From Lachnospiraceae bacterium (GTDB lineage: Bacteria; Bacillota; Clostridia; Lachnospirales; Lachnospiraceae), in the NCBI GenBank assembly GCA_029067085.1, contig JAIEFE010000016.1, positions 138,665 to 202,664 of the forward strand: DNA of 64,000 nucleotides, read 5' to 3'. Numbering within the stretch: the first letter of the stretch is position 1; the number at the start of each line of letters is the position of its first letter. Shown one piece after another: positions 1-38,096 of the stretch. Below the pieces are notes generated by a model that worked only from the letters and a program-made list of their open reading frames with translations, was not told the DNA's origin and ran no database searches. Both the position numbers and the translations under genes were made by a program.

Positions 1-2
1 GT

Positions 3-146
3 CAGTCTAATGGGTATCGCATTATATATTATGCAGTTCGGGATGATGCGGAGGTGTATCTTCTTACGATTTATTATAAAAAGGATGATAACAGGATACC
101 GACTAATCAGGAGATTATAGAGTTGGTAGAGACTTATTGCATGTAG
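3..146 (+). CDS. RelE/HigB-like toxin, C-terminal part (cut by window edge)
   Basis: An open frame enters from the left edge and ends at TAG 144-146, giving 47 residues. The segment contains GYRIIYYAVRDDAEVYLLTI followed by YYKKDD and a helix ending ELVETYCM. This matches the C-terminal beta-strands and last helix of RelE/ParE/HigB-type mRNA interferase toxins. The start is outside the window and no antitoxin gene follows, so any antitoxin would lie to the left. It stands 116 bp upstream of a Wadjet locus, which fits a defence-type island. The assignment rests on pattern recognition of a short piece; an unrelated beta-rich small protein is the main alternative. Confidence 0.6.
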   Translation, partial: QSNGYRIIYYAVRDDAEVYLLTIYYKKDDNRIPTNQEIIELVETYCM

Positions 147-262
147 TTTTTTTGCTGATTTATACTACGATTTTTGTGAAAAAATATTAAGAAGAAAGGT
201 TGAAAGAAAAATACTTTAATGATTGATTATGAGCCCGCTAAGGCGGACATGAGGATTATAAA

Positions 263-553
263 TTGAAATATTTGGAATCAATTCAGGAAACGATATATTT
301 ATCCGCTGGTAACGCTCCACAGTACAGACGTATTATGCGGATTTTTTTTATGGAATATGAAAAAATGCATTTTCAGTTATATAAGGAAGATGTGTTAGAA
401 TTGCTCAGAGAGTATCCAGAGTTTTCGGATTATCCTATGGAGCAGTTGAAAACAGATTTAGAGGCATTGGTTGCTTGGAAGAATCTCACACCTATTCAGG
501 ATCCCAAAAGAGTTTACACAATCGCAGAATATAAAAACAAGCAGTTCCGTTAG
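263..553 (+). CDS. jetA: Wadjet type II JetA, N-terminal fragment (stop at 551-553)
   Basis: This is the first 96 residues of a TIGR02677/DUF2397-type protein, the JetA (MukF/kleisin-like) subunit of type II Wadjet, which restricts plasmids. The start is TTG 263, with GAGG at 251-254 eight bases upstream; no in-frame ATG has a better site. The segment (SAGNAPQYRRIMRIFF, then a winged-helix-like stretch ending in IAEYKNKQFR) matches the usual N-terminus of the family. An in-frame TAG ends it, and the same frame reopens at ATG 557 with the remainder of the protein. Either the gene is inactivated by a nonsense change or it makes two polypeptides by termination and re-initiation. The frame is preserved across the stop, so this is not a frameshift. 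Confidence 0.8.
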   Translation: MKYLESIQETIYLSAGNAPQYRRIMRIFFMEYEKMHFQLYKEDVLELLREYPEFSDYPMEQLKTDLEALVAWKNLTPIQDPKRVYTIAEYKNKQFR

Positions 554-556
554 ACT

Positions 557-1738
557 ATGTCAGAATATGCGGTGGAGATAGAGAGAATGACGGTAAAACT
601 GGAAACTCTTTTTCTGGATAGCGGTAATCTGTCTATGAATTATTTTGCGCGGATAGAAAGTGCTTTACTTGAAATGGAGCAGATGAGTCATCAGGAACTC
701 AAAGCAGTGAATGAATGGTGGAGTAATTTACAGGAAGATTTTAAAAGATTAAATCGCAATTATCAGGATTATTTGCGGGAGTTCTATTCAGGAAAATCAG
801 ATAAAGTTCTTAAATCTATAGAGTTTGTTGTACACAAAGACAGATTCATTTCTTATTTACAGGAATTTGTGCAGCAGCTTCAGAATAAATCCATACGAAT
901 AGAAAATACAATTAAAAAATTGTCCAGAGAAATGGTAAACGAGGTATTGGAGAGGGTTATTGAAAGTGAATTGGAAATTCCGCATCCGAATTCTGAAATA
1001 CAGAATTTGAGAGAGAATGCAATAAGGGAAAATATTTATGGAAAATGGCAGAGCCTGTCGGACTGGTTTATTTCAACGGAAAAGCATCCGAGCGAAAGCC
1101 AGAAAGTGTTGGATGTTACAGACGAGGTTATCCGAAAAATAATACAAAATGCAGCTTTGATTGTACAATTGCAAAATTGGGGAATCAGCCGTAAGGAAGA
1201 TTATAAGAAATTTATTCAAATGTTTGCGCAGTGTGAAAATGTGGAAGCAGCGCACAAACTTTCGGCGCATGTATTTGGATTACAGCACGTGCGGCACTTT
1301 AAAGTAAACGGCCCGCGTGCTACTGACAGCATAAACAGTGGTGTTTTTGATGAAGTACCGTCAGTATATGAATTGAAGCCTCACACCAGAACGTATAAAC
1401 CAAGAATACATAAATCAGGTTTTGAAAGCAAAGCTTTGGAGAAGCAGGCACAGCGGAACCAATATTTGAAAAAGCTGGAAGAAGACAAAAAGCTGGTTAC
1501 AAAATATATCAAGGATAAGCAGCTGGATATCAGTTGGATTACTGACTGCATTTCGGTTGACACTAGGGAAACTCTTCTACGTTGGATTGCCCAGGCGAAT
1601 CTGAATGCTTCTAAAAGTGGGATGACAGAATATGGGCAGGCATTCCACATGAAAATATTAGAGGGCAGCCACACTTTGAAATGCGAGGATGGGGAACTGG
1701 TGATGCCTATATATGTATTCCAGTTTGAGGATGAGTAG
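557..1738 (+). CDS. jetA: Wadjet type II JetA, C-terminal fragment
   Basis: These 393 residues continue the 263-553 frame after one stop codon and one Thr codon. The opening SEYAVEIERMTVKLE is the normal interior of TIGR02677 proteins rather than an N-terminus. Both pieces with the intervening codons make about 491 residues, the usual family length. ATG 557 lies three bases after the TAG, so re-initiation by terminating ribosomes is possible, although no separate SD is needed or obvious. The body is helical and charged, as expected for a kleisin-like subunit that bridges the SMC heads. Its 3' end is nearly contiguous with jetB. Family identity is secure; whether functional protein is made is not. 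Confidence 0.85.
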   Translation: MSEYAVEIERMTVKLETLFLDSGNLSMNYFARIESALLEMEQMSHQELKAVNEWWSNLQEDFKRLNRNYQDYLREFYSGKSDKVLKSIEFVVHKDRFISYLQEFVQQLQNKSIRIENTIKKLSREMVNEVLERVIESELEIPHPNSEIQNLRENAIRENIYGKWQSLSDWFISTEKHPSESQKVLDVTDEVIRKIIQNAALIVQLQNWGISRKEDYKKFIQMFAQCENVEAAHKLSAHVFGLQHVRHFKVNGPRATDSINSGVFDEVPSVYELKPHTRTYKPRIHKSGFESKALEKQAQRNQYLKKLEEDKKLVTKYIKDKQLDISWITDCISVDTRETLLRWIAQANLNASKSGMTEYGQAFHMKILEGSHTLKCEDGELVMPIYVFQFEDE

Positions 1739-1739
1739 A

Positions 1740-2882
1740 ATGGAAGCGGTAAGGGCGTTAATAGAAAATTGTTGGATCGACAAAAAGAAAGATAAAGAAT
1801 TATATACAAAGGTACGTAGGGAACTGTCTAAATGCCAAAAATTTTTTCGTGAACAGTTAGGCTGGACGATTATTAATAATGAGCAGATATTAAAGGCAGA
1901 AAAAATTCCTGCCCATGCGGAAAGTTTTATGGGAATTACGGACTTTATAGAAAGCAGGGATTACTGCCTGTTTTGTGCTGTTCTGGCTTTCTTGGAAGAC
2001 AAGGAGGAGCAGGAGCAGTTTTTATTATCAGAATTGGTAGACATGCTGGAACTGCAATTGAAGGGTGTGCTTGATGTGAATTGGACATCATTTACGCAGA
2101 GAAAGTCTCTTGTAAGAGTTTTGCAGTTTTGTGAAAATATGAGATTGCTGGAAGCATATGAAGGGAGCTCTGATAATATCGGCAGCGGCATAGGGCAGGA
2201 GATTTTGTATGAAAATACAGGGCTTTCCAGATACATGGCGGTAAACTTCGCATATAGTATTGCAGACTTTCAGTCGTGGGAAGATTTTGAAAACCGGCAG
2301 ATAGAAGAAAGTGAAGCTGACAGAGGACATTATAGGATTAACCGTGTGTATAGACAGCTCGTTGCAGCACCTGCCCTATACTGGAGCCGGGCTGATAATC
2401 CGGACAGTATATATCTGAAAAATCAGAGGCAGTGGATACAGAAAAATATCAGTGAATATTTGGGAGGGTATCTCCATATACATAAAAATGCCGCTTTTTT
2501 GGTGATGGATGAGGAGGAATGTTTTGGGGAAAGACATCCCAGAGAGGCTATGCTTCCGGAGCTTGTTTTGATTTTGTGCAGGTTAATCAGGGAAAAAGTG
2601 GAAACCGGTGTTTGGGAGGAGCGGCAGGATGAGTGTATTGTGGTTTCACAAAAAGAGTTTCAGGCGGAACTTCATAATTGCCGTGACAGATATGGACAGG
2701 CATGGAGTAAGGAATACAGGGAAATGGAAGACACAAAGTTACTGACAACAGTTATTTCTTATATGAAATCCTGGATGATGATTGAAGAGTGTGACGAGGA
2801 AATTGTTATTTATCCGGCAGCAGGAAAGACAACCGGGAATTATCCCGCAGATTTTCAGACAAAGGGGAAAGCAGATGAATGA
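1740..2882 (+). CDS. jetB: Wadjet type II JetB (TIGR02678/DUF2398 family)
   Basis: An intact 380-residue protein of the TIGR02678/DUF2398 family, the MukE-like partner of JetA and JetC in type II Wadjet. Recognisable family segments are DYCLFCAVLAFLEDKEEQEQ followed by LLSELVDMLE near residues 80-110, and ENTGLSRYMAVNFA around 165. ATG 1740 is preferred because GAGG at 1727-1730 sits nine bases upstream; ATG 1731 would leave almost no spacing. It begins one base after the jetA stop and overlaps jetC by eight bases, so the genes are translationally coupled. No internal stop is seen. Among the four subunits, only jetB and jetD have uninterrupted frames. Confidence 0.9.
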   Translation: MEAVRALIENCWIDKKKDKELYTKVRRELSKCQKFFREQLGWTIINNEQILKAEKIPAHAESFMGITDFIESRDYCLFCAVLAFLEDKEEQEQFLLSELVDMLELQLKGVLDVNWTSFTQRKSLVRVLQFCENMRLLEAYEGSSDNIGSGIGQEILYENTGLSRYMAVNFAYSIADFQSWEDFENRQIEESEADRGHYRINRVYRQLVAAPALYWSRADNPDSIYLKNQRQWIQKNISEYLGGYLHIHKNAAFLVMDEEECFGERHPREAMLPELVLILCRLIREKVETGVWEERQDECIVVSQKEFQAELHNCRDRYGQAWSKEYREMEDTKLLTTVISYMKSWMMIEECDEEIVIYPAAGKTTGNYPADFQTKGKADE

Positions 2883-4473
2883 GCGTTGGCATATGAACCG
2901 AATAGGATTTGTAAATTTCTGGTTGTATGATGATGAAGTATTTTCTTTTGCAGAGGGCAAACTGCTGCTCCGCGGGCAGAATGCCTCAGGAAAATCTATT
3001 ACAACGCAGAGCTTTATTCCTTTTATACTGGATGGAGACAGGACACCCAGCCGGCTGGATCCTTTTGGATCCAGTGACAGGAGAATGGAATACTATTTTT
3101 TGCATGATGGTGAGAAAGAGGAAGCGACCGGTTATTTGTATTTGGAGTTTCAAAAGGGAAACCGTTATCGGACGATTGGAATCGGCCAGCAGGTGCAAAG
3201 AGGAAAAGCGATGGGCTTTTGGGGCTTTGTTGTGTTGGATGGGAGAAGAATTGGTTATGATTTTAAACTGTACCGGGAAGTGGGGAATACAAAGATTGTT
3301 TATACAAAGCAGGAAATGAAAAAAGAACTGGGAGAAAGTAATCTGTTTACGGAAGTACAGAAAGAATATATGAGTTTTGTGAACAAACATATATTTGGAT
3401 TTCCAAGGCTGGAACAATATAAGCAGTTTATACGGCTCTTGATAAAAGTCAGAGCGCCGAAGCTTTCTAAGGAATTTACGCCGAGAAAAGTATATGAGAT
3501 ATTGAACGACTCTTTACAGACTTTGTCTGATGAGGATTTACGTGCCATGGTAGATGCCATGGAGAAAATGGATGATATACAGGATAAGCTGGACGGCTTA
3601 AAAAGAGCTTATAAAGATTTGCAGATTATACGAAATGAGTACATAAAGTATAATCAGTATATGTTGGGACAAAAAGCAGCCGCATATCTGGAAGAAAAAG
3701 GACTGGTTGATGAAGCCAGAGGAAGACTGGAAGCGGAAAAAGATGAATTAAGGGAGACGAGAGAAAAGTTAGGGGAATCCTATGCAAGAAGCGCCGAACT
3801 CAAAACAGAGAAAAGTCTGTTGGAACGGGAGAAGGAAGCCATTGGTACAACGGACCTGGAGGAGGCGGATGAAAAATTAAGACAGTGTCGGAAACGGCAG
3901 GAAGAGGCAGAGAAGGAAGTTGACAAATATTGCCAAAGTATTGAGCAGCACAGAAATACGATACGGGAGTATTATGCCATAATCCGTGAGGTACAAAAGA
4001 GCATCAGTGCATGTCAATTGGAGATAGAGCAGCTTGTGAATGAGATGGATGAGCTGCAGGAAACCGTCTGCTTTTCCGGACATGCGCATGTTTTAAGCTT
4101 GTGGAAGAATTCGGACGGTTATGAGGAATGTAAGGAAATAAAAAGCCAGCTTGAAACATTATGTAAAAACGTAGAAATGGCATTGGCGGAACTGAAAAGG
4201 TTTAAAGAAGTGCAGATACAATGGGACAAGCTGTCAGAAGAATGCAGCAGTCTGGAAGAAAAGAAGGCGCAGGTAAAACAGCAGGTGGACGACGCGGAAG
4301 CGATGGAGGATGTGCTGAGGGATGATTTGATTGAGGCATACTATGGGTTGGAGCAGCTTAATCAAGAATTCTATTTATCCAAAAAAGAACTGGAACAAAT
4401 ATCAGGATATATTCAGAGATATCAGGGGATAGCGGATTATGGGGATGTGCGCAATCTCATCGGGAACATATGA
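2875..4473 (+). CDS. jetC: Wadjet type II JetC (SMC-like ATPase), N-terminal half ending at in-frame TGA
   Basis: The N-terminal 532 residues of a TIGR02680-family SMC/MukB-like ATPase, the DNA loop-extruding motor of Wadjet. Walker A is GQNASGKS at residues 34-41. The globular head continues through FSEQYKQF-like helices to about residue 230 and then becomes a long charged coiled coil. The start ATG 2875 overlaps the end of jetB. The frame is stopped by TGA 4471-4473, and translation of the same frame resumes without a shift (ETKNQKLGSELSALKI). The stop falls in the coiled coil just before the hinge-like segment, so the half-protein alone lacks the signature motif and Walker B. Nonsense inactivation, a split gene or an assembly error are the options. 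Confidence 0.85.
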   Translation: MNERWHMNRIGFVNFWLYDDEVFSFAEGKLLLRGQNASGKSITTQSFIPFILDGDRTPSRLDPFGSSDRRMEYYFLHDGEKEEATGYLYLEFQKGNRYRTIGIGQQVQRGKAMGFWGFVVLDGRRIGYDFKLYREVGNTKIVYTKQEMKKELGESNLFTEVQKEYMSFVNKHIFGFPRLEQYKQFIRLLIKVRAPKLSKEFTPRKVYEILNDSLQTLSDEDLRAMVDAMEKMDDIQDKLDGLKRAYKDLQIIRNEYIKYNQYMLGQKAAAYLEEKGLVDEARGRLEAEKDELRETREKLGESYARSAELKTEKSLLEREKEAIGTTDLEEADEKLRQCRKRQEEAEKEVDKYCQSIEQHRNTIREYYAIIREVQKSISACQLEIEQLVNEMDELQETVCFSGHAHVLSLWKNSDGYEECKEIKSQLETLCKNVEMALAELKRFKEVQIQWDKLSEECSSLEEKKAQVKQQVDDAEAMEDVLRDDLIEAYYGLEQLNQEFYLSKKELEQISGYIQRYQGIADYGDVRNLIGNI

Positions 4474-4512
4474 GAGACGAAAAACCAGAAGCTGGGAAGT
4501 GAGCTTTCTGCC

Positions 4513-6912
4513 TTGAAGATACGAATGGAAAAGAAAACGGAATCTGTAAAAGTTTGTACAGAAGAACTGGAGGAGTTGGAAAAAGCCCAGGAGATCACTC
4601 CTTTGCGCAGAGAAATCCTGTGCAGGACGAGGGAGCGGCTGTCAGAAAACAATATTTCTTTTTTGCCCTTTTATGAAGCGGTTGATTTTGCAGAGGGTAT
4701 TTCCATGCAGGACAGAGATTTGACGGAATGCCAGTTAGAGGATGCAGGCCTTTTAGACGCATTAGTTGTTTCAGAGAAAGACTATGTAAGGGCGATGCAG
4801 ATTTTGGGAGAATGGTCAGATAAGATTCTCTGGTTAAAAGATTCTGGAAAGAACGGATATGGCAAACTGGTAGTAGCGGCCAAAGACCCGGAACTGCAGA
4901 AGATGGCAAAGCAGATTTTGACCAATATCGGAGAAGAAGATGACTACCAGATTGTATTAAAGCCCAATGGCTATTTCAGGCATGGAGCAGTGGAAGGATT
5001 CAGTAAACCTGAAAAAGAGGCATGTTACATTGGAGAAGCGGTAAGAAGGGAAAAGAAGAAGGAGCAAATCAGAAGAAAGAGGGAAGAACTGCAGTTCTTG
5101 CAGCAGGAATTGGATGCGTTGGAACAAGGGAGTGATGTATTAAAGAAACGGCTTGAAATCTTGCGGGAAGAATATCGTGGATTGCCAGTATTTGATGAGT
5201 TGGACCAGGCAATTGCGATGAAGAGGGATTTAGACTGGGCGCTTGAAAAGTGCAGTGAAGAGTGCAGCAAGAAGCAAAGAGAAATAGAGGAGTGTGAAGT
5301 CAGGAAAAAGCAGTCTGCACAGCGGGTCATAACCAGCTGCCGGGAACTGCCCTACGAAAGAAATATTGACAGTTATGAAGAAGTTTTGGAGGCGCTTTGG
5401 GAGTATAAGAATCAGTTGGAATCGTTTCAGATGGCTGCTGTGCGTTATTCGGCGGAGCAGGACAGGGAAGATATGCAGAGGCAGCTGATTGAAAAAGAGG
5501 AAGACGCAATTGATACAGAAGATCTCTATAAAAAGAAGGGGGAGCAGGAGGTACAGGAACAGAAACTGCAAATAGAAAAACTGGAAGAATTTCTCAATGC
5601 ACCCGAAAATAAAGAGAAAGCGGAGCGACTGAAAGCAATCAAGGAAGAACTGCATCAGAAGGACGAGGAGGAACGGGAATTAGGTAAGAAGCAGGCTGTA
5701 TGGGAGAGTGATGTAAAAAAGCTGGAGCCGGATATTGAAAGGCAAAAAAATATAGTTATGGAAAAAATGGAGAAAGAGACCCGGCTCAGGAGATATTTTG
5801 AGGAGGAATTATCGCTGGGGCTTGTATTTGCAAGAGAAAGCAAAACAATACCGGAAGCTGCTGAACAGGCAAAAGGGATAATAAGGGAAAGTGACAGAAA
5901 TAAGTCGGTAGCAGAGGTTGTATCGAATCTGGACCGGATTTTCCATGCGCATATCGGAAATTTGGTAAATTACGGGACATTTATGGAAGAGTGTTTCGCA
6001 GAAGAAACAAAAGATGCGATGGTGTTGCGTAAGCGCCATAGGATTGTCTCTTATGTGCAGGGACGTAAATTGTATTTTGAAGATTTTTATAAAATAATTA
6101 AAGAAAGGATTGATGAAACCGAACTGTTAATTCGCCAAAAGGACAGAGAGTTGTTTGAAAATATTTTGTCGGACACATTGAGCCGAAAGCTGAATGTACG
6201 TATTGCCGAAAGCAGGAAGTGGATTCAGGATATGTCTTCTCTTATGCGTAAAATGGATACTTCCATGTCATTGACTTTTTCATTGGACTGGAGAGCAAAG
6301 ACCGCAGGTGGAGAAGGTGAATTGGATACAGCGGAATTGGAGAAGCTGTTGAACCGGGACAGAGAATTAATGACTACAGAGGATATCGAAAAAATTTCCG
6401 CACATTTCAGAAATAAGATTTATACTGTAAAGCAGATGGCAGAGGAAAACGGTGAAGTTTTGAGTTATTCTGATTTGGTGAGAGAAGCGCTGGATTATCG
6501 GAAGTGGTTTGAATTCAAAATGTTTTACTACAGGAATGATGAAAATAAGAAGGAATTAACCAATGGAGCTTTTAATCGCTTCAGCGGAGGTGAAAAGGCA
6601 ATGGCAATGTATGTCCCTCTGTTTGCGGCGGTAAATGCACAGTATAAAAAAGTGGAACATGATGATTTACCAAGAATGATCGCGTTGGATGAGGCATTTG
6701 CAGGTGTAGATGATAAAAATATCAGCAGTATGTTTGAACTTGTAAGAAGGTTTGATTTTGATTATATTATGAATTCACAGGTGCTGTGGGGATGTTACGC
6801 TTCTGTTCCTTTTTTGCGGATAGCAGAACTACTCAGGCCTGCAAATTCGCAGGTGGTTACGGTTATCTACTATTTATGGAATGGAAAGCAGAGAATTATT
6901 GAGGAGCAGTGA
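4513..6912 (+). CDS. jetC: Wadjet type II JetC, C-terminal half
   Basis: The C-terminal part of the same TIGR02680-type ATPase, in the same frame as 2875-4473. TTG 4513 is the first plausible re-initiation codon after the TGA, with a weak GGGAAG at 4494-4499. The order is coiled coil, a hinge-like segment (FLPFYEAVDF, then LLDALVVSEKDY), a second coiled coil, and the C-terminal head. The head carries the ABC signature FSGGEKAM near 6580-6603 and Walker B MIALDEAFAGVD near 6676-6711. Counted through the stop, the whole gene is about 1345 codons, the normal size. Motifs needed for ATPase function are intact in both halves, so the TGA is either recent or tolerated. Confidence 0.85.
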   Translation: MKIRMEKKTESVKVCTEELEELEKAQEITPLRREILCRTRERLSENNISFLPFYEAVDFAEGISMQDRDLTECQLEDAGLLDALVVSEKDYVRAMQILGEWSDKILWLKDSGKNGYGKLVVAAKDPELQKMAKQILTNIGEEDDYQIVLKPNGYFRHGAVEGFSKPEKEACYIGEAVRREKKKEQIRRKREELQFLQQELDALEQGSDVLKKRLEILREEYRGLPVFDELDQAIAMKRDLDWALEKCSEECSKKQREIEECEVRKKQSAQRVITSCRELPYERNIDSYEEVLEALWEYKNQLESFQMAAVRYSAEQDREDMQRQLIEKEEDAIDTEDLYKKKGEQEVQEQKLQIEKLEEFLNAPENKEKAERLKAIKEELHQKDEEERELGKKQAVWESDVKKLEPDIERQKNIVMEKMEKETRLRRYFEEELSLGLVFARESKTIPEAAEQAKGIIRESDRNKSVAEVVSNLDRIFHAHIGNLVNYGTFMEECFAEETKDAMVLRKRHRIVSYVQGRKLYFEDFYKIIKERIDETELLIRQKDRELFENILSDTLSRKLNVRIAESRKWIQDMSSLMRKMDTSMSLTFSLDWRAKTAGGEGELDTAELEKLLNRDRELMTTEDIEKISAHFRNKIYTVKQMAEENGEVLSYSDLVREALDYRKWFEFKMFYYRNDENKKELTNGAFNRFSGGEKAMAMYVPLFAAVNAQYKKVEHDDLPRMIALDEAFAGVDDKNISSMFELVRRFDFDYIMNSQVLWGCYASVPFLRIAELLRPANSQVVTVIYYLWNGKQRIIEEQ

Positions 6913-6913
6913 T

Positions 6914-8236
6914 GTGGAAGAAAATATTTTAGAACAATGCGCTTGTTATTTCAGAAAAAATAAAGCATATCTCCGTATGTTTATGGAGATGAAGAAGAAA
7001 TATATGAAATATGGAAAGCTTTCAGGGAAAATCTGCCTTGAGAATCTATCTGAAACAGAATGCAAAGCTTTAGGCGCGGTTTTCGGAAAAAGTCTGTTGC
7101 CGGGTGACTTTACATTTTCTATTTCACAGTTGCAGGCTGCATTAAATGAAACAAAATATTGTGATATCGAAGTGGAGAAACTTGTAGAAAAATATTTTGA
7201 AGAAAGGATTCTGTCAAACAGTCAAAAGAAAGAAGAAAAAACTGAGTCAAATAAAATGTTCTGGGAGATGTTTTTGAATGAGGCAATAGACCGGTTTGGC
7301 GCTGAAGCCAGGGGAGTCCTTTGGCTGAGGGTAGTATGGGAGCAGCGAAGATACGGCTATCAGCTTATTGTGAAGGAAAGAGAAAAATCGGAGAATATTA
7401 TAAAAGACATGCTTATGGAAGTATGCAGGGCATTGGAGTATTTGGCGGACGGGAATGGGAAAAAAGGTGTTAGACTGGCTGTGCTGGGGGCAAAAATAAC
7501 AAAGAATCCTCATTACTTTGATAGGCAGAATGCTGCGGGGCGTTTGTTGATCAACGCCCTAAGTTTTATTTATAATACAGAGGAGCCAAAGGGTCAGGAG
7601 GAGGTTTTGGCATTGTATTATTTGTCAGGAATTTATACTGATGACATTTCCAGTTACACAACATGCTATGGAATCCATTTTTATGAGGGTGATAGAGAAC
7701 ATGAAGCCTATTGGCATTTTATTGAAAAAGGCGAAAAATATGTTTTGACGCTTTCCAATTTAAGCAGGCTGACAAGGGCAGGGAGTAGTAGGAAGAAAGT
7801 ATTTATTATCGAAAATCAAATGGTTTTTTCCCAAGTGTGTGAAGAAATCAGAGGGGAAGAATATTCTGTTATGTGTACTTCCGGCCAGTTAAAAACGGCT
7901 TCCTTATTTTTGATTGATATGTTGGTAAAGTCTGACTGTGAATTATATTATTGTGGCGATATTGATCCGGAAGGGATTGAGATAGCGGATAGAGTAATGG
8001 CAAGAAATTCGGCTAATATTTTTCTCTGGAGAATGACAGTGGAGGACTATTATCGCTCGATATCGGATGAAAAGCTTACAGAGAAGCGTTTAAAGAAATT
8101 GGATAAAATTGCAAATATTCAACTAAGGAAACTTTCTGAAGTTTTGAAGATAGAAAAGAAAGCCGGTTATCAGGAACATTTAATTGATTTGATGGTACGG
8201 GATATTAGGATAAAAAGCTTTTCGGAAGAGTTATAG
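6914..8236 (+). CDS. jetD: Wadjet type II JetD (TOPRIM nuclease subunit, TIGR02679)
   Basis: An intact protein of about 440 residues in the TIGR02679 family, the topoisomerase VI-like TOPRIM subunit that cleaves DNA in Wadjet. The TOPRIM signature is visible as VFIIENQ (metal-binding Glu) near 7799-7819 and CGDIDPEG near 7952-7975, with the DxD pair. GTG 6914 is preferred because GAGGAG at 6901-6906 precedes it by seven bases. ATG 6881 would extend the protein 11 residues into jetC without an SD. The start is one base past the jetC stop. With jetA, jetB and jetC in this order it completes the type II gene set. Confidence 0.88.
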   Translation: MEENILEQCACYFRKNKAYLRMFMEMKKKYMKYGKLSGKICLENLSETECKALGAVFGKSLLPGDFTFSISQLQAALNETKYCDIEVEKLVEKYFEERILSNSQKKEEKTESNKMFWEMFLNEAIDRFGAEARGVLWLRVVWEQRRYGYQLIVKEREKSENIIKDMLMEVCRALEYLADGNGKKGVRLAVLGAKITKNPHYFDRQNAAGRLLINALSFIYNTEEPKGQEEVLALYYLSGIYTDDISSYTTCYGIHFYEGDREHEAYWHFIEKGEKYVLTLSNLSRLTRAGSSRKKVFIIENQMVFSQVCEEIRGEEYSVMCTSGQLKTASLFLIDMLVKSDCELYYCGDIDPEGIEIADRVMARNSANIFLWRMTVEDYYRSISDEKLTEKRLKKLDKIANIQLRKLSEVLKIEKKAGYQEHLIDLMVRDIRIKSFSEEL

Positions 8237-8496
8237 AGAATTTGGATTTTGTAAGGACAAATAAGAAGTCAAATATCTATGATTAGACAATTTGCAAAAG
8301 TGTGACATCAGTTTTTCTTAGATGGAAGAAATAATAGAGAATGTGTTTGTGTGTTGTATTGGCAACGGATGTGCAAAAGAGTTCGAATTTAAAACATGTT
8401 TTGGAATTTATATTAGAACAGGACGTTCTCCAAACTGAGACTAATTGCTATATGTTATGCCATATTACAAGTGAATTATGTTTGTATTGCAAGAAT

Positions 8497-8550
8497 AACT
8501 TGACACTAATTTACCACGATTTTTTCATGAACTTGACATTAATTTACCAC
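8497..8550 (+). repeat. Two direct copies of a 21-bp repeat, possible IS end remnant
   Basis: Copies at 8497-8517 and 8530-8550 differ by one base (aacttgacaYtaatttaccac) and are spaced 33 bp start to start. A weaker echo, tgacattaa, occurs at 8612-8620. Repeated terminal motifs of this size are typical of the ends of IS21-like elements, but no transposase frame is present between 8237 and 8869. An open frame across 8341-8601 runs through both copies and is not believed to be a gene. Apart from these copies and the palindrome at 8737-8762, I see nothing recognisable in this 630-bp gap. Confidence 0.6.
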
Positions 8551-8736
8551 AACCCCAACGAAGTTATGCGGCTTTGGGGGATTTTGATTCAAAAAAAGTG
8601 AAAAAAGTTCGTGACATTAACTTGACTCCATAGGGGTATGGGGCGTTGTGTGTGGCGGAGAGTCTGCCGAGTTAGAATGGAGAAGGTTTGATTTGAGTTT
8701 TGACATTATTATCTGCATAATCGATATCGTAAAAGC

Positions 8737-8762
8737 TAAAGTGGTCGAATTCGACCACTTTA
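8737..8762. promoter_or_regulatory. 26-bp perfect palindrome
   Basis: The half-site taaagtggtcgaa is followed directly by its exact reverse complement, with an EcoRI-like GAATTC at the centre and no loop. It lies 107 bp upstream of the membrane-protein gene at 8870. As RNA it would form a weak factor-independent terminator for either side; as DNA it has the form of a dimeric repressor operator. The sequence does not decide between these. Confidence 0.6.
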
Positions 8763-8869
8763 TTTACGACCCACATTTATAGCAGCTGATGACATTATAC
8801 TTGCCTGCGTATGTCATGCAGGTGTAAAATTTTATGTAATGATAATAACAAATGTGGAGGTTACAGAAG

Positions 8870-9700
8870 GTGAATCTAAAAGAATGGCTGACAGTAAATT
8901 TTACGGAAATACATACCGAAAAGCTGGCGAAGATTTTGCTGGCAATTTTTCTTATGGTGTTTTCTATATTTGTTCTGCCACATAAAGTTCCGGAGAGCCG
9001 GTTTGTGCAGGAGACCCTTGAAAACCTGGATGAGAGTAAAATGACCGTTATTGAATTCTCCGGTGCAACAATAGCTGTTTCTCTGGCAATTACGGCGCTT
9101 CCGGATGATTTTGGCAGTCCGTTGGCTAACACGTTAACGGATATGAACAAATACTTCATATTCATTTTTGCAGTTTTGTTTGTGGAAAAATTAATTGTTG
9201 TGGAAGGAATGATGCTTTCCTTTGTGTATATTATACCGTTGGCGTGCGGTCTTTATATACTATCGGTGTTGTCCGGGAAATCTATATGCAAAGTTTTTGC
9301 TTCAAAGCTGATGATCCTTGGTTTGGCAGTTGTATTTGTTATACCGATCAGTACACATTTTACGGAAAAAGTATGTAAAGATTACCTGGTTTATGTGGAT
9401 GAAACCATATCGGAGGCTAATGACGGAGCCGAAAAGGTTAATGGAGTCATGGCTTCAGGAGATGGGGAAGCATCCGTTTTTGAAAAGCTTACCGATGCAT
9501 TTAAGACTGCTGTTCAGGGAATATCCGATCTGCTTACTTATTTTGAAAATGTCTTAAAAAAATGTGTGAATTCCATTGCCATTATGATTGTGACGACATT
9601 TGTCCTGCCAATGATCGTTCTGCTACTCTTTCGGTGGCTGCTTAAGGAATTATTCAGTCTGAGTCTGCCGGCGCCCCGGGTGAACAAGGAGGAAAAGTGA
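8870..9700 (+). CDS. Multi-pass membrane protein of unknown function
   Basis: About 276 residues with hydrophobic segments near residues 20-36, 93-112, 113-136, 147-165 and 237-262, and a charged extracellular or cytoplasmic stretch with helix-forming sequence between about 165 and 235. I do not recognise the family. GTG 8870 has GGAGG at 8856-8860 nine bases upstream; ATG 8852 would put that SD inside the gene. Its end overlaps the DUF4230 gene by four bases, so the two are translationally coupled and probably act together at the membrane. There is no signal peptidase site and no catalytic motif. Its position after a palindrome and a non-coding gap suggests its own promoter, which I could not place. 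Confidence 0.75.
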   Translation: MNLKEWLTVNFTEIHTEKLAKILLAIFLMVFSIFVLPHKVPESRFVQETLENLDESKMTVIEFSGATIAVSLAITALPDDFGSPLANTLTDMNKYFIFIFAVLFVEKLIVVEGMMLSFVYIIPLACGLYILSVLSGKSICKVFASKLMILGLAVVFVIPISTHFTEKVCKDYLVYVDETISEANDGAEKVNGVMASGDGEASVFEKLTDAFKTAVQGISDLLTYFENVLKKCVNSIAIMIVTTFVLPMIVLLLFRWLLKELFSLSLPAPRVNKEEK

Positions 9701-26997: not shown

Positions 26998-29900
26998 TTA
27001 TCTAAAAAATTTGACGCTTCCATCTTTAAATCGAGCGACATATAGGGTCCGTTTTGCGGTCAGACCGGAACCGTCCTGAAGCTTTACAGTGACAGTCATT
27101 TTTTGCAGATCGCTCGCATAGAGTATTCTGGAACTGGAGGGTTTATTCGTAGTCACATGACCGGGGATCGGATAAAAATAATACATACCGTCATATCCCT
27201 TTTTCAGTCCGGGGTTTTTTCCGCCGGACACGGTGACCGTGTAATAGGCCGGAGCATATTTTTTGGCATTTTTTCCGGTGCTATCCCATCCGACTGCCAC
27301 GAAACCATTTTCAATCGTGAGCTTTTTGTAGAGCGGTGTAATGGTAAAGGTATACTTGTTGGAGGTGACGCCGCTGCCGTCCGCCGCGGTAGCGGTAATA
27401 TATGCGGAACCGCTGGCACCTTTTTGGGCAGTCACTTTGCCGTTCTTGTCTACGGTCAGGATATTCTCATTGCTGGACTTCCAGATCACTTTTTTATTCG
27501 TGGGCGTACCGTAGTTACTGCTGTACTTGGCAGACATCTTGATGCTCTTACCGGAAGCGATACAACCGATGTATCCGGAAGAAGTATATTCGCCATAGCT
27601 GCTGGTCGTTCCTATGGACAGTCCGGACATAGGAATCGTGACATTGACCGTACAGGTCGCTTTTTTGTTGCTGCCGTCTGTGGCGGCGCAGGTGATGGTC
27701 GCTTTGCCGGCACTTTTTGCAGTCACTTTACCTTGCGAATCTACCGAAGCAATAGAAGGAGCGCTGCTTTGCCATTTGATCAGAGTGTTTTCTACGCCGG
27801 TCTTACCCTGTACATCAGCGGTCAGTTTTGCCGTCGAAAGCTTGCCTGTTTTAGGAGAAAACAAAGTCAGTTTTGTTGCGGACAGCTTAATGGATGTGAT
27901 CTCTCCGGATACGATACTGACAACATAGGCATATGATTTGTCAGAACCATCCTTGGTGGCAGCAAGCACCGTACAGGTTCCTGTAGCATCCTTTTTCGCA
28001 GTCACTTTACCGCTTGCGTTTACGGTTACTTTGTCGTTGTCCAAGATTTTCCAGTCAAGCTTCTTATTAGTGGCATTAGAAGGGGTGATGGAAGCGGTAA
28101 GGGTGATACTCTTTCCGGCGGCCATTTTGAACGGCCCGCTTAAGGTGATTTTTGTGACGGGCTGTGCCACTGTAACAGTATAGGAAGCGCTCTTTTTGCA
28201 GCCATCGTTGGAGATTGCCTTGATGACAGCTTTACCCGGTGCAACGGCGGTGATCACACCATTTGCAACGGTGGCAACCTTGGTGTTGCTGCTGGACCAG
28301 ACGACTTCGTCAGCAGCAGCGGCGCCGGTAAGATCGATATCTGTTTTGCTTACCGCGTCTGTTTTGGTTACTGTGAGGTAGTCTATTAAGGAAAAAGTCC
28401 TGCCATTGACCGTATTCATATTCCGCGACTTGAGTGCCTTCTTGTCGCTATCCAGAAAAGCTACCTTTTTGATCGTGGCACTGTCAATGACGTTAAATGT
28501 ATAGGTGCCTTTTACCGTGCTGATAGCAGTTTTGCCGTCTTTTTCCGTAGCGGTAGCGGTGACGGTATATTTACCTGCTTTGGTAGAAGCGGTTTTGGAA
28601 GCTTTTGTTTTTACGGTGCCGTTTGATACGGTGATGCCTTCAGCCTTGGCGGTATCGTCTACAGTCCAGACAACTTTGGTGGAGATTGCATAGGATGGAG
28701 TGACTGCCGCAGTCAATTTTATGCTTTTTCCTGCAACGATCTTTGCTTTGCCGTTTGCGATGCCGTCCGCAGAAGACACAGTTACCGAGGTGGGAGCCGG
28801 TGTCAGTACGCATGTCTTAGAAGCTGCCTTACTCACTTTCCCGGTGATCGGATTGACTGCGATCGCCTTGATGGTCATATTTCTGGCGCCTCCAACCTTG
28901 AAAGCTTTCGTGTATTTCTGTCCGACCGTGATCTGTCCGTTTTTAAAAGCAGGAGTCTTGCCGTCTGTGGTATAGTAGAGTTCCACGCCCACAGCAGTTT
29001 TGGCAGAGAGCGTAACGGTAACATTTTCTGTTGTGTAAGTTTTACCGGCCTTGTCTGAAGCCTTTTCGGCAATGGTGATCGTCGGAGCAGCCGGCGTGGT
29101 CATATCGGTAGCGAGCTTTAACACACCCGGCAGCCAGGTGGTGCCTGCGCCCATGCCGGAGTTGGTGCATTTGGTGGTGGAGGACTTCATGGCGGAGAGG
29201 AGTGCATCCACTCTTGCCTTGCCTTTTTTATTCCTGATGCTTTCGTTAGCGGAAAGGATCACCGCCGCCGTGCCTGCCGCTGCGGGGGATGCCTGGCTGG
29301 TGCCGCTCATGAGAGCATAGCCGCCGGGCACTGTGGAATAAATAGCCACACCCGGGAAAGACAATTTCACAGCGCCTCCGTAGTTGGAGAAACTTGCTCT
29401 GGAGCTGTTTCGGTCCACGGCGCCCACGGAGATAGCACCGGGGTAGGATGCAGGGAAATTATTGCCGTCCGAGTCATCATTACCGGCGGAGGCAAAAATC
29501 GCAACGCCTTTCTGGTAGGCGTTCCGGACAACCTTTGCGGAGTTGCCGTCATACATCGGCCCGCCCAGACTCATGTTGATGATATCGTTGCCGTCTGCTA
29601 CGGCGGCGTTGATGGCACGATTGATGTATGCGGAGTCTGTCTGTGACTTATTATTAAAGACAGCGTAGCCTCGTATCTGCGCTTGCGGCGCAATTCCCAC
29701 ACCGCCTTTTCCGTTGGAGGCAGCGGCAATGATACCGGCCACATGGGTGCCGTGTTGACCGTTGTCGCCATCGAATGCTGTCCCGCCGGCTCCGTTTGAA
29801 AAGTTTCTGCCCGACACGGCATTTGCAGATAAATCTTCGTGATTTCTCTGAAGCCCGGTGTCGATGACAGCTACTTTACTTCCACTGCCCTTATATCCGG

Positions 29901-31032
29901 CGGACCAGGCATAGCGGGTGCCGATATAGTCATGATGCCATTGTCTGGCAAATCCGGGATCTGAGGGTGCGGATGCATCAGGCGTGATGTTATCAAACGA
30001 GGAGTCATCAGGCGTGGATGCATCAGACACGAGGTCATCAGACGTAAAGTCATCAGAGGCGAAGTCATCAGCCAGATAGTCATCAGGCATAATATCTGTG
30101 TCATCATTCAAATAACTGTAGTAGTTAGGCCACACGGCGGGCAGATTGCAATCGGGCTCTGCTGCAGCAGCGATCGCCATAGCCACCGTAGCCTGCTCGG
30201 GAAGTCTGATCACGGCAACCTCATAGGAGTAGCTGTCCACTGTTCCGCCAAATGCCTTAGCCACTTCCGCCGCCTCTGTTTCGGTTTCAGCCAGATATAC
30301 CACCTCGCCGAGCTCGTAAATGCCCTCTGCATCGGGATAGTCTTCGGCCTTTCCGGTATTTTTCGCTACAATGTCACCCACATGAGCGGCCAATTCGCGT
30401 TTGTCGGCCAGCTGTTGGGAGGACAGGATATAATTCTCGCCTAATCCGGGGAAGATGTCGAAGGCATCCTCGTCTTCCTCGGGGAGCGTGTTTTCCGAAA
30501 TGGTGTTTTCGGAAACGGTATCTTCGGCGTTTTCTTCGTCGGGAGGAAGTTCTTCGTCCTTGACGGCTTCCTGATCTTCAGGGTTCTCTTCGTTCTCAGG
30601 GTTTTCTTCGGCTGAAGAGTCCTCACCGTTCTCAGGGTTTTCTTCGGCTGCGGAGTCCTCACCGTTCTCAGGGTTTTCTTCGGCCGCAGAGCCTTCACCG
30701 TTCTCAGGGGTCCCTTCGGTTCCGGAGTTCTCCCCGTTTCCGGTAGTTTCTTCGTTATCCGTATCCTTTTCTTTGTCATCAGAAGGATTCTTGGTTTCTT
30801 CGTCTCCGGCGGAGGGCTGCCCAGCATTCTCCCCGTTCTTGTCATCTTCAGCGGAAGGCTGTTCCGGATTTTCACGGTCCGGAATCTCTTCGGAGGATTC
30901 ATTTTCGGGTTCATCAACGGATTCGCTGACAGAGACAGGGTCTAAGCCGGCAGTTGCCAGCGCGTCGATCCCTGCTGTGTGGAACAGCAGAGAGCCTGCT
31001 AATAAGAATGACAGTACCTTTACTCGTTTCAT
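26998..31032 (-). CDS. Secreted S8 (subtilisin-type) protease with Ig-like domains
   Basis: 1344 residues. The order is a signal peptide (1-27), a Glu/Pro/Asn-rich linker (about 31-190) with 12-residue repeats, a propeptide-like domain (about 197-300), an Asp-rich linker (about 311-355), and an S8 catalytic domain (365-640). The catalytic triad is Asp391 (VAVIDTG), His427 (HGTHVAG) and Ser579 (GTSQASP), with oxyanion Asn518. After this come a chitobiase-like domain (about 650-735) and several bacterial Ig-like (Big_2) repeats to the end. No LPxTG sorting signal is seen, so wall attachment would be non-covalent or the protein is released. The gene directly follows a lipoprotein gene that resembles its own propeptide. 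Confidence 0.93.
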   Translation of the reverse strand: MKRVKVLSFLLAGSLLFHTAGIDALATAGLDPVSVSESVDEPENESSEEIPDRENPEQPSAEDDKNGENAGQPSAGDEETKNPSDDKEKDTDNEETTGNGENSGTEGTPENGEGSAAEENPENGEDSAAEENPENGEDSSAEENPENEENPEDQEAVKDEELPPDEENAEDTVSENTISENTLPEEDEDAFDIFPGLGENYILSSQQLADKRELAAHVGDIVAKNTGKAEDYPDAEGIYELGEVVYLAETETEAAEVAKAFGGTVDSYSYEVAVIRLPEQATVAMAIAAAAEPDCNLPAVWPNYYSYLNDDTDIMPDDYLADDFASDDFTSDDLVSDASTPDDSSFDNITPDASAPSDPGFARQWHHDYIGTRYAWSAGYKGSGSKVAVIDTGLQRNHEDLSANAVSGRNFSNGAGGTAFDGDNGQHGTHVAGIIAAASNGKGGVGIAPQAQIRGYAVFNNKSQTDSAYINRAINAAVADGNDIINMSLGGPMYDGNSAKVVRNAYQKGVAIFASAGNDDSDGNNFPASYPGAISVGAVDRNSSRASFSNYGGAVKLSFPGVAIYSTVPGGYALMSGTSQASPAAAGTAAVILSANESIRNKKGKARVDALLSAMKSSTTKCTNSGMGAGTTWLPGVLKLATDMTTPAAPTITIAEKASDKAGKTYTTENVTVTLSAKTAVGVELYYTTDGKTPAFKNGQITVGQKYTKAFKVGGARNMTIKAIAVNPITGKVSKAASKTCVLTPAPTSVTVSSADGIANGKAKIVAGKSIKLTAAVTPSYAISTKVVWTVDDTAKAEGITVSNGTVKTKASKTASTKAGKYTVTATATEKDGKTAISTVKGTYTFNVIDSATIKKVAFLDSDKKALKSRNMNTVNGRTFSLIDYLTVTKTDAVSKTDIDLTGAAAADEVVWSSSNTKVATVANGVITAVAPGKAVIKAISNDGCKKSASYTVTVAQPVTKITLSGPFKMAAGKSITLTASITPSNATNKKLDWKILDNDKVTVNASGKVTAKKDATGTCTVLAATKDGSDKSYAYVVSIVSGEITSIKLSATKLTLFSPKTGKLSTAKLTADVQGKTGVENTLIKWQSSAPSIASVDSQGKVTAKSAGKATITCAATDGSNKKATCTVNVTIPMSGLSIGTTSSYGEYTSSGYIGCIASGKSIKMSAKYSSNYGTPTNKKVIWKSSNENILTVDKNGKVTAQKGASGSAYITATAADGSGVTSNKYTFTITPLYKKLTIENGFVAVGWDSTGKNAKKYAPAYYTVTVSGGKNPGLKKGYDGMYYFYPIPGHVTTNKPSSSRILYASDLQKMTVTVKLQDGSGLTAKRTLYVARFKDGSVKFFR
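30571..30690 (-). repeat. 36-bp tandem repeats encoding the acidic linker of the S8 protease
   Basis: About three and a half copies of a 36-bp unit encode ENPENGEDSAAE-type 12-mers (residues about 115-154). Copies differ by single bases. Such coding repeats expand and contract easily, so linker length may vary between strains. A shorter 15-bp periodicity (gtcatca core) at 29998-30085 encodes the DDFxS linker after the propeptide-like domain. Confidence 0.75.
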
Positions 31033-37810: not shown

Positions 37811-37845
37811 ATAGAAAATTTAATCTGATAAACCGTTGAAGCGGA

Positions 37846-38096
37846 GATAAAGGTGATGATGCCTTTACAGAGAGCCTGTGTTGCTGAGATCAGGTAAGAA
37901 ACAAGTCATCAAATGGACCGCGGAGGGTGCAGTCAAATGTGCATGGCACAGAGTATTCTGCAACGCATGGCCCGCGTCAGAGGCCGGGGATATGTTGGTA
38001 TCCTGCAAAGGGCACGGGGTTTCCCGTGAAGCAAGGTGGCACCGCGGATTTGGTAAATTCGTCCTTGACAAGACTCAGGTTTTGTCAAGGACTTTT
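37846..38096 (+). ncRNA. T-box leader controlling trp genes (tRNA-Trp responsive)
   Basis: The T-box signature AAGGTGGCACCGCGG is at 38033-38047. It is followed by the terminator stem gtccttgacaa (38061-38071) with ttgtcaaggac (38082-38092) and a T-run. Upstream sequence has the length and internal repeats of a stem I domain, with a TGG at 37914-37916 as the likely Trp specifier codon. Uncharged tRNA-Trp would pair with specifier and the TGG of the T-box bulge, favouring the antiterminator. The left boundary is approximate. Confidence 0.9.

Follow-up and report, generated by a model that had tools for sequence, protein, structure and literature searches.

The window analysed here, a stretch of 64,000 nucleotides, corresponds to bases 138665-202664 of contig C8 in a 3.76-Mb, 26-contig assembly that is 83.6% complete. 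Window bases 1-9000 were read, and they carry a type II Wadjet operon, jetA-jetB-jetC-jetD, in which all genes run in one direction on the forward strand (263-8236). The 5' piece of jetA (263..553) starts with TTG, encodes 96 amino acids matching DUF2397/JetA2 and positions 6-100 of the PADLOC profile PDLC00540, and ends at a premature in-frame TAG, JetA codon 97 (551..553). The 3' piece (557..1738), 393 amino acids if read from ATG 557, is again DUF2397 and matches positions 103-493 of PDLC00540. jetB is open (1713..2882; 389 amino acids, DUF2398/JetB2), with an in-frame ATG at 1740 as an alternative start. The 5' piece of jetC (2875..4473) encodes 532 amino acids including the Walker A motif, matches positions 1-532 of profile PDLC00550 and ends at a premature in-frame TGA, JetC codon 533 (4471..4473), while the 3' piece (4474..6912) contains the hinge, the ABC signature and Walker B, matches PDLC00550 positions 536-1354 as well as SbcC_Walker_B, and has possible starts at TTG 4513 and ATG 4525. 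jetD is also open (6881..8236; DUF3323, DUF2399 and JetD_C); its start is more likely GTG 6914, which has GAGGAG before it at 6901-6906, than ATG 6881.

The first-pass annotation had described a type II locus with two in-frame stops, an unchanged frame and a normal protein downstream of each, intact jetB and jetD, and well-kept ATPase motifs, and this description was borne out in all these respects. PADLOC type 2 models were best for all six Jet pieces, with concordant Pfam assignments, and each pair of halves matches adjoining stretches of one PADLOC profile. Wadjet systems of this kind are known for cutting plasmids that enter the cell. The gene set is that of Wadjet type II, i.e., jetA with DUF2397, jetB with DUF2398, a MukB-like SMC as jetC and jetD with DUF3323/DUF2399, in this order; one unbroken SMC chain is not found for JetC, owing to the TGA at codon 533, nor one unbroken kleisin with N-terminal winged helix for JetA, owing to the TAG at codon 97. 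The Walker A (GQNASGKS), signature (FNRFSGGEKAMAMY) and Walker B (ALDEAFAGVDD) stretches are kept in JetC. The Gly to Ala change in Walker A was considered as an older lesion and ruled out because Ala is common at that place, being shared by 56 of the 208 motif-bearing proteins listed (a count that includes the window's own P0001 and P0243). The window's Jet proteins belong to the same families as those of the type II JetABC complex of Neobacillus vireti (structures 9qe0 / 9qe1), and JetC and JetA align with 9qe0 over nearly the whole length (E 5.1e-164 and E 2.6e-71, respectively). However, JetA and JetC of N. vireti are single full chains, whereas jetA and jetC of the window are each cut by a stop. 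The N. vireti type II Wadjet cleaves naked circular DNA (PMC12647877).

Several other features surround the operon. A short gene pair lies directly upstream of jetA (L059:19628-19999 and window 1-146), its second gene running into the window, and resembles a toxin-antitoxin module. Just 3' of jetD, within 8500-8550, are two direct copies of TTGACAYTAATTTACCAC, the only exact copies in the assembly. For the gene to the right of the operon (8852-9700), a search of 20 other genomes gave no match, and the neighbourhood therefore appears variable. Further along the window a T-box leader (RF00230) at 37827-38069 precedes a gene cluster which we take to be for tryptophan synthesis, and an open reading frame of 1344 amino acids on the reverse strand (26998-31032) looks by eye like a surface protein of the subtilisin type, with Ig-like segments that recur and a long, acidic stretch of repeats.

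Comparison with jetA and jetC of close relatives revealed sense residues at both stop columns. A tblastn comparison comprised 58 loci, 21 of them from GTDB genome contigs and the others including genus and family genomes. The JetA column holds Tyr in all 19 of these loci whose alignment reaches it, own loci not counted, and in 118 of the 120 database proteins listed, the other two having no letter there. The JetC column holds Trp in all 23 close relatives from the database (P0003 and P0005-P0026); over the 120 database proteins listed it is Tyr in 62, Trp in 31 and another residue in 18, with no letter in nine, the window's own C-terminal half among them. On sequence grounds the stop-broken jetA and jetC frames thus exceed what chance noise among open reading frames would give. 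Intact Wadjet II operons with the same gene order are present in Sporofaciens musculi (L038), Lachnospiraceae bacterium 28-4 (L039) and bacterium 1xD8-48 (L049), with 82-89% amino-acid identity to the window in JetA, JetB and JetC and 72-75% in JetD, but they differ from it in that their aligned JetA-D are without a stop. The closest intact JetC (P0003; 1339 amino acids), found in a public assembly whose source tag is lgn, is about 99% identical to that of the window, from which it differs by 15 amino acids and the stop column; its first six residues are absent.

The absence of the JetC stop from this sister allele, together with the incompleteness (83.6%) and fragmentation (26 contigs) of the genome, would fit one or both stops being errors of the assembly or its consensus. 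Against this, the stop-ended N-terminal half of JetC (526-aa product) is identical on three contigs, the window's own among them, though reads could be shared between these, and among the 10 same-frame neighbour pairs of open reading frames in the window only the two jet pairs look like parts of a single gene (the other eight judged by eye). An error is accordingly considered very unlikely. A second way to rescue both proteins would be that readthrough or recoding of the stops yields full-length JetA and JetC. The residues of relatives are aromatic at both columns, tRNAs for these aromatic residues are near-cognate to TAG and TGA, and frame and downstream protein are intact. On the other hand, the genes for RF1 and RF2 are both present, none of the 42 distinct tRNAs found in the 83.6% complete genome has a stop anticodon, and no tRNA-Sec scored over the cut-off in the genome, which speaks against selenocysteine at the TGA. 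Neither a suppressor tRNA nor the loss of a release factor, the marks of a recoded or stop-suppressing organism, was found in this genome, although at its level of completeness a suppressor tRNA may have been missed. The codons themselves are in ordinary use as terminators: the stop codons of 42 long, mostly non-overlapping open reading frames of the window are 15 TGA (one being the disputed jetC stop), 15 TAA and 12 TAG, i.e., TAG or TGA ends 27 of the 42 with the disputed stop counted, and within the operon TAG terminates the jetA 3' piece, while TGA terminates both jetB and the jetC 3' piece. With release factors present, no stop-reading tRNA among the 42 and the same codons ending other genes, genome-wide recoding is rejected as unlikely, and production of full-length JetA and JetC across the stops is regarded as exceedingly improbable.

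The two breaks were said to fall between domains, which is so for JetC and not for JetA. In a structural model of the JetC middle of the S. musculi locus (mean pLDDT 91.9), the best solved match of which is the JetC of the N. vireti type II complex, 9qe0, the stop column lies in a coiled-coil helix spanning model residues 80-131, some 38 residues ahead of the hinge-like part, and conservation around it is low (17th percentile). In the JetA model, which is of modest confidence (mean pLDDT 62.3), winged-helix matches span residues from about 6 to 98-101, and the stop column is in strand 91-95, with which the N-terminal winged helix ends. The JetA stop is thus placed by the model inside the predicted last strand of this domain, and conservation around it is high (93rd percentile).

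It is conceivable that translation restarts at ATG 557 and at TTG 4513 or ATG 4525, and that the halves of JetA and JetC come together again as a functional or altered complex. The restart codons named by the first-pass annotation, ATG 557 and TTG 4513, do exist, the former only three bases past the TAG. The JetC cut in a poorly conserved coiled coil shortly before the hinge and the kept ATPase motifs are consistent with a split protein. Some database proteins also begin near the two breaks. In P0141 and P0145 (JetA, 392 amino acids) the first residue is the methionine at the position of ATG 557, and in P0119 (JetC, 819 amino acids) it is the counterpart of residue 529. All three come from short contigs (2001, 1543 and 3954 bases, respectively), so edge effects are possible; at one further locus (L041), which opens on the contig's end and where the JetA match runs from residue 88, at base 54 of the locus, it is the contig end that cuts jetA. 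The 795-aa database entry P0004 begins at ATG 4525. Ribosome binding was assessed as the duplex energy of the 16S tail with the bases upstream of each codon, for which the background median was -3.0 and the 25th percentile -5.0. The annotated starts gave -5.6 (jetA, TTG 263), -8.0 (jetC, ATG 2875) and -4.8 (jetB, ATG 1713). Of the restart candidates, TTG 4513 showed moderate pairing similar to that of jetB (-4.9), whereas ATG 557 (-0.9) and ATG 4525 (-1.4) pair more weakly than the background median, and by this test there is no Shine-Dalgarno pairing upstream of ATG 557.

Other observations also speak against a split system. The JetA cut is within a predicted winged-helix strand in a conserved block, the allele about 99% identical in JetC is unsplit, and the other located jetC breaks are at different places, none of them at 533, which rules out a conserved split site for these breaks. 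A restarted JetA would moreover be without its N-terminus. In type I JetABC, dimerisation of the kleisin N-terminus joins two motors, and finished loop extrusion is proposed to activate JetD (PMC10586767). By analogy we infer that motor pairing and JetD activation of this kind also hold in type II, in which case the restarted JetA would lack the part that pairs the motors. The suggested assembly of the system from five or six polypeptides is consequently disfavoured by the location of breaks elsewhere in relatives, the JetA break in a conserved winged-helix block and the want of a ribosome-binding site at ATG 557, and reassembly of the halves is thought very improbable. A special form of it is more doubtful still, in which a JetA that has lost the domain for motor pairing would join a JetC in two pieces to make a single motor that extrudes DNA but has neither a partner nor a trigger for cutting; if true, such a split, uncoupled Wadjet would be a plasmid killer turned into a machine that compacts or tolerates plasmids.

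The reading preferred here is that the operon was very probably inactivated recently by two ordinary nonsense mutations, one each in jetA and jetC. The jet genes show the mark of strong purifying selection, with dN/dS in the window against seven close relatives (six for jetD) of 0.05-0.08 for jetA, 0.07-0.11 for jetB, 0.07-0.12 for jetC and 0.14-0.17 for jetD. The dS values to these relatives approach saturation (0.69-1.36), and for five outgroup loci 16 of the 20 comparisons gave no defined dS. The intact operon of Lachnospiraceae bacterium 28-4 gave values similar to those of the window against the same relatives. Changes private to the window at otherwise invariant columns numbered 5, 4, 9 and 2 in JetA-D, compared with 6, 4, 14 and 4 at a related locus (L043) and mostly fewer in the six remaining close relatives, for which closer sisters were among the loci compared. 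Relative to close relatives, the window's jet genes showed no surplus of nonsynonymous or private changes. When the JetC differences from the intact allele were polarised, seven were derived in the window (the stop included), six were derived in the allele and three were without clear polarity.

Decay elsewhere in this copy, which the first-pass annotation had named as evidence against its own reading, was looked for through private changes and dN/dS in jetA-D and was not seen beyond the two stops. Strong purifying selection without excess decay implies that the stops are young. Relaxed selection could not serve as a clock, as neither dN/dS nor private changes gave a signal of it, so that only "recent" can be said of their age. 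The earlier proposal of a very recent inactivation thus agrees with the intact JetC at about 99% identity, the lack of excess nonsynonymous or private changes and the balance of derived changes (7 vs 6). Absence of decay beyond the stops would fit a working system as well, though young age explains it too. To judge from its substitutions, the operon is one that was under constraint until recently.

Most of the copies read in relatives are whole, but broken or missing Wadjet genes are not confined to the window. JetC was surveyed in 44 genomes with a match at E <= 1e-100 (29 of 397 genomes in one set and 18 of 392 in another, with three in both), and four of the 44, own included, have an in-frame JetC stop. 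In the other three it lies at the equivalent of residue 1228 (G082; TAG), near the equivalent of residue 99 with N bases close by (G515), and at the equivalent of residue 1292, the end of the match (G593). N-terminal JetC fragments in the database are mixed with contig-edge pieces and were left out of these rates. Like the window, Lachnospiraceae bacterium strain 526-35 (L045) and the lineage of P0244 are close relatives with a broken jetC, but here by frameshifts, at about 355 and about 735, respectively, and not by a stop at 533. P0244 (781 amino acids) has a tail that matches the other frame of relatives, and its presence on 27 contigs indicates that disruption of jetC is widespread within one closely related lineage.

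For JetA, matches at E <= 1e-30 were found in 34 of 397 family genomes, with a stop inside the match only in the window's own genome. Only part of JetA is matched in five of the 34. Contig ends account for three of these (G165, G168 and G082), whereas two lie within long contigs and are collapsed Wadjet remnants, with short JetA, JetB and JetC pieces (L136, G208:C36) or short JetA and JetD pieces (L137, G331:C33) within about 1.5 kb. In the genus Wadjet is patchy, since a match covering most of JetC occurs in only two of 77 genomes, one of them the window's own and the other with 32% identity. An origin from a virus or a plasmid was rejected: no relative was found in viral contigs, and all 21 plasmid records with a match were below 60% identity. 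Breaks of jetC at varied places in relatives from the family and order, together with remnants in two family genomes, suggest that Wadjet anti-plasmid immunity has been lost repeatedly in this lineage. No report on broken Wadjet genes was recognised by title among the literature matches listed (titles and abstract starts), which is no proof of absence.

If the two nonsense mutations act as ordinary stops, ribosomes would halt at JetA codon 97 and leave a kleisin piece ending inside the N-terminal winged helix, and at JetC codon 533, leaving an SMC arm that lacks the hinge as well as the ATPase half with signature and Walker B. No SMC ring or loop-extruding motor would then form, JetD would never be triggered, and small circular plasmids would escape restriction. 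Whichever stop came first would render the second neutral. A precedent for such an effect exists in Clostridium cellulovorans, which like the strain studied here belongs to Bacillota and has a chromosomal jetABCD, and where deletion of the native jetABCD raised conjugative plasmid uptake by about five orders of magnitude, so that its loss opens the cell to plasmids (PMC12287153). The same paper reports that in Bacillota jetABCD and small plasmids almost exclude each other (PMC12287153). In C. cellulovorans the operon was deleted and the effect measured, whereas in the window the lesions are nonsense mutations and their effect is deduced. The locus represents a known system in broken form, found in a lineage with recurring Wadjet loss. 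Defence catalogues that count families would score it as an active Wadjet although it is likely dead. Should the copy indeed be inactive, the strain would be expected to be open to small plasmids, and the prediction of such plasmid-accepting strains may be relevant to genetic access to anaerobes of this kind.
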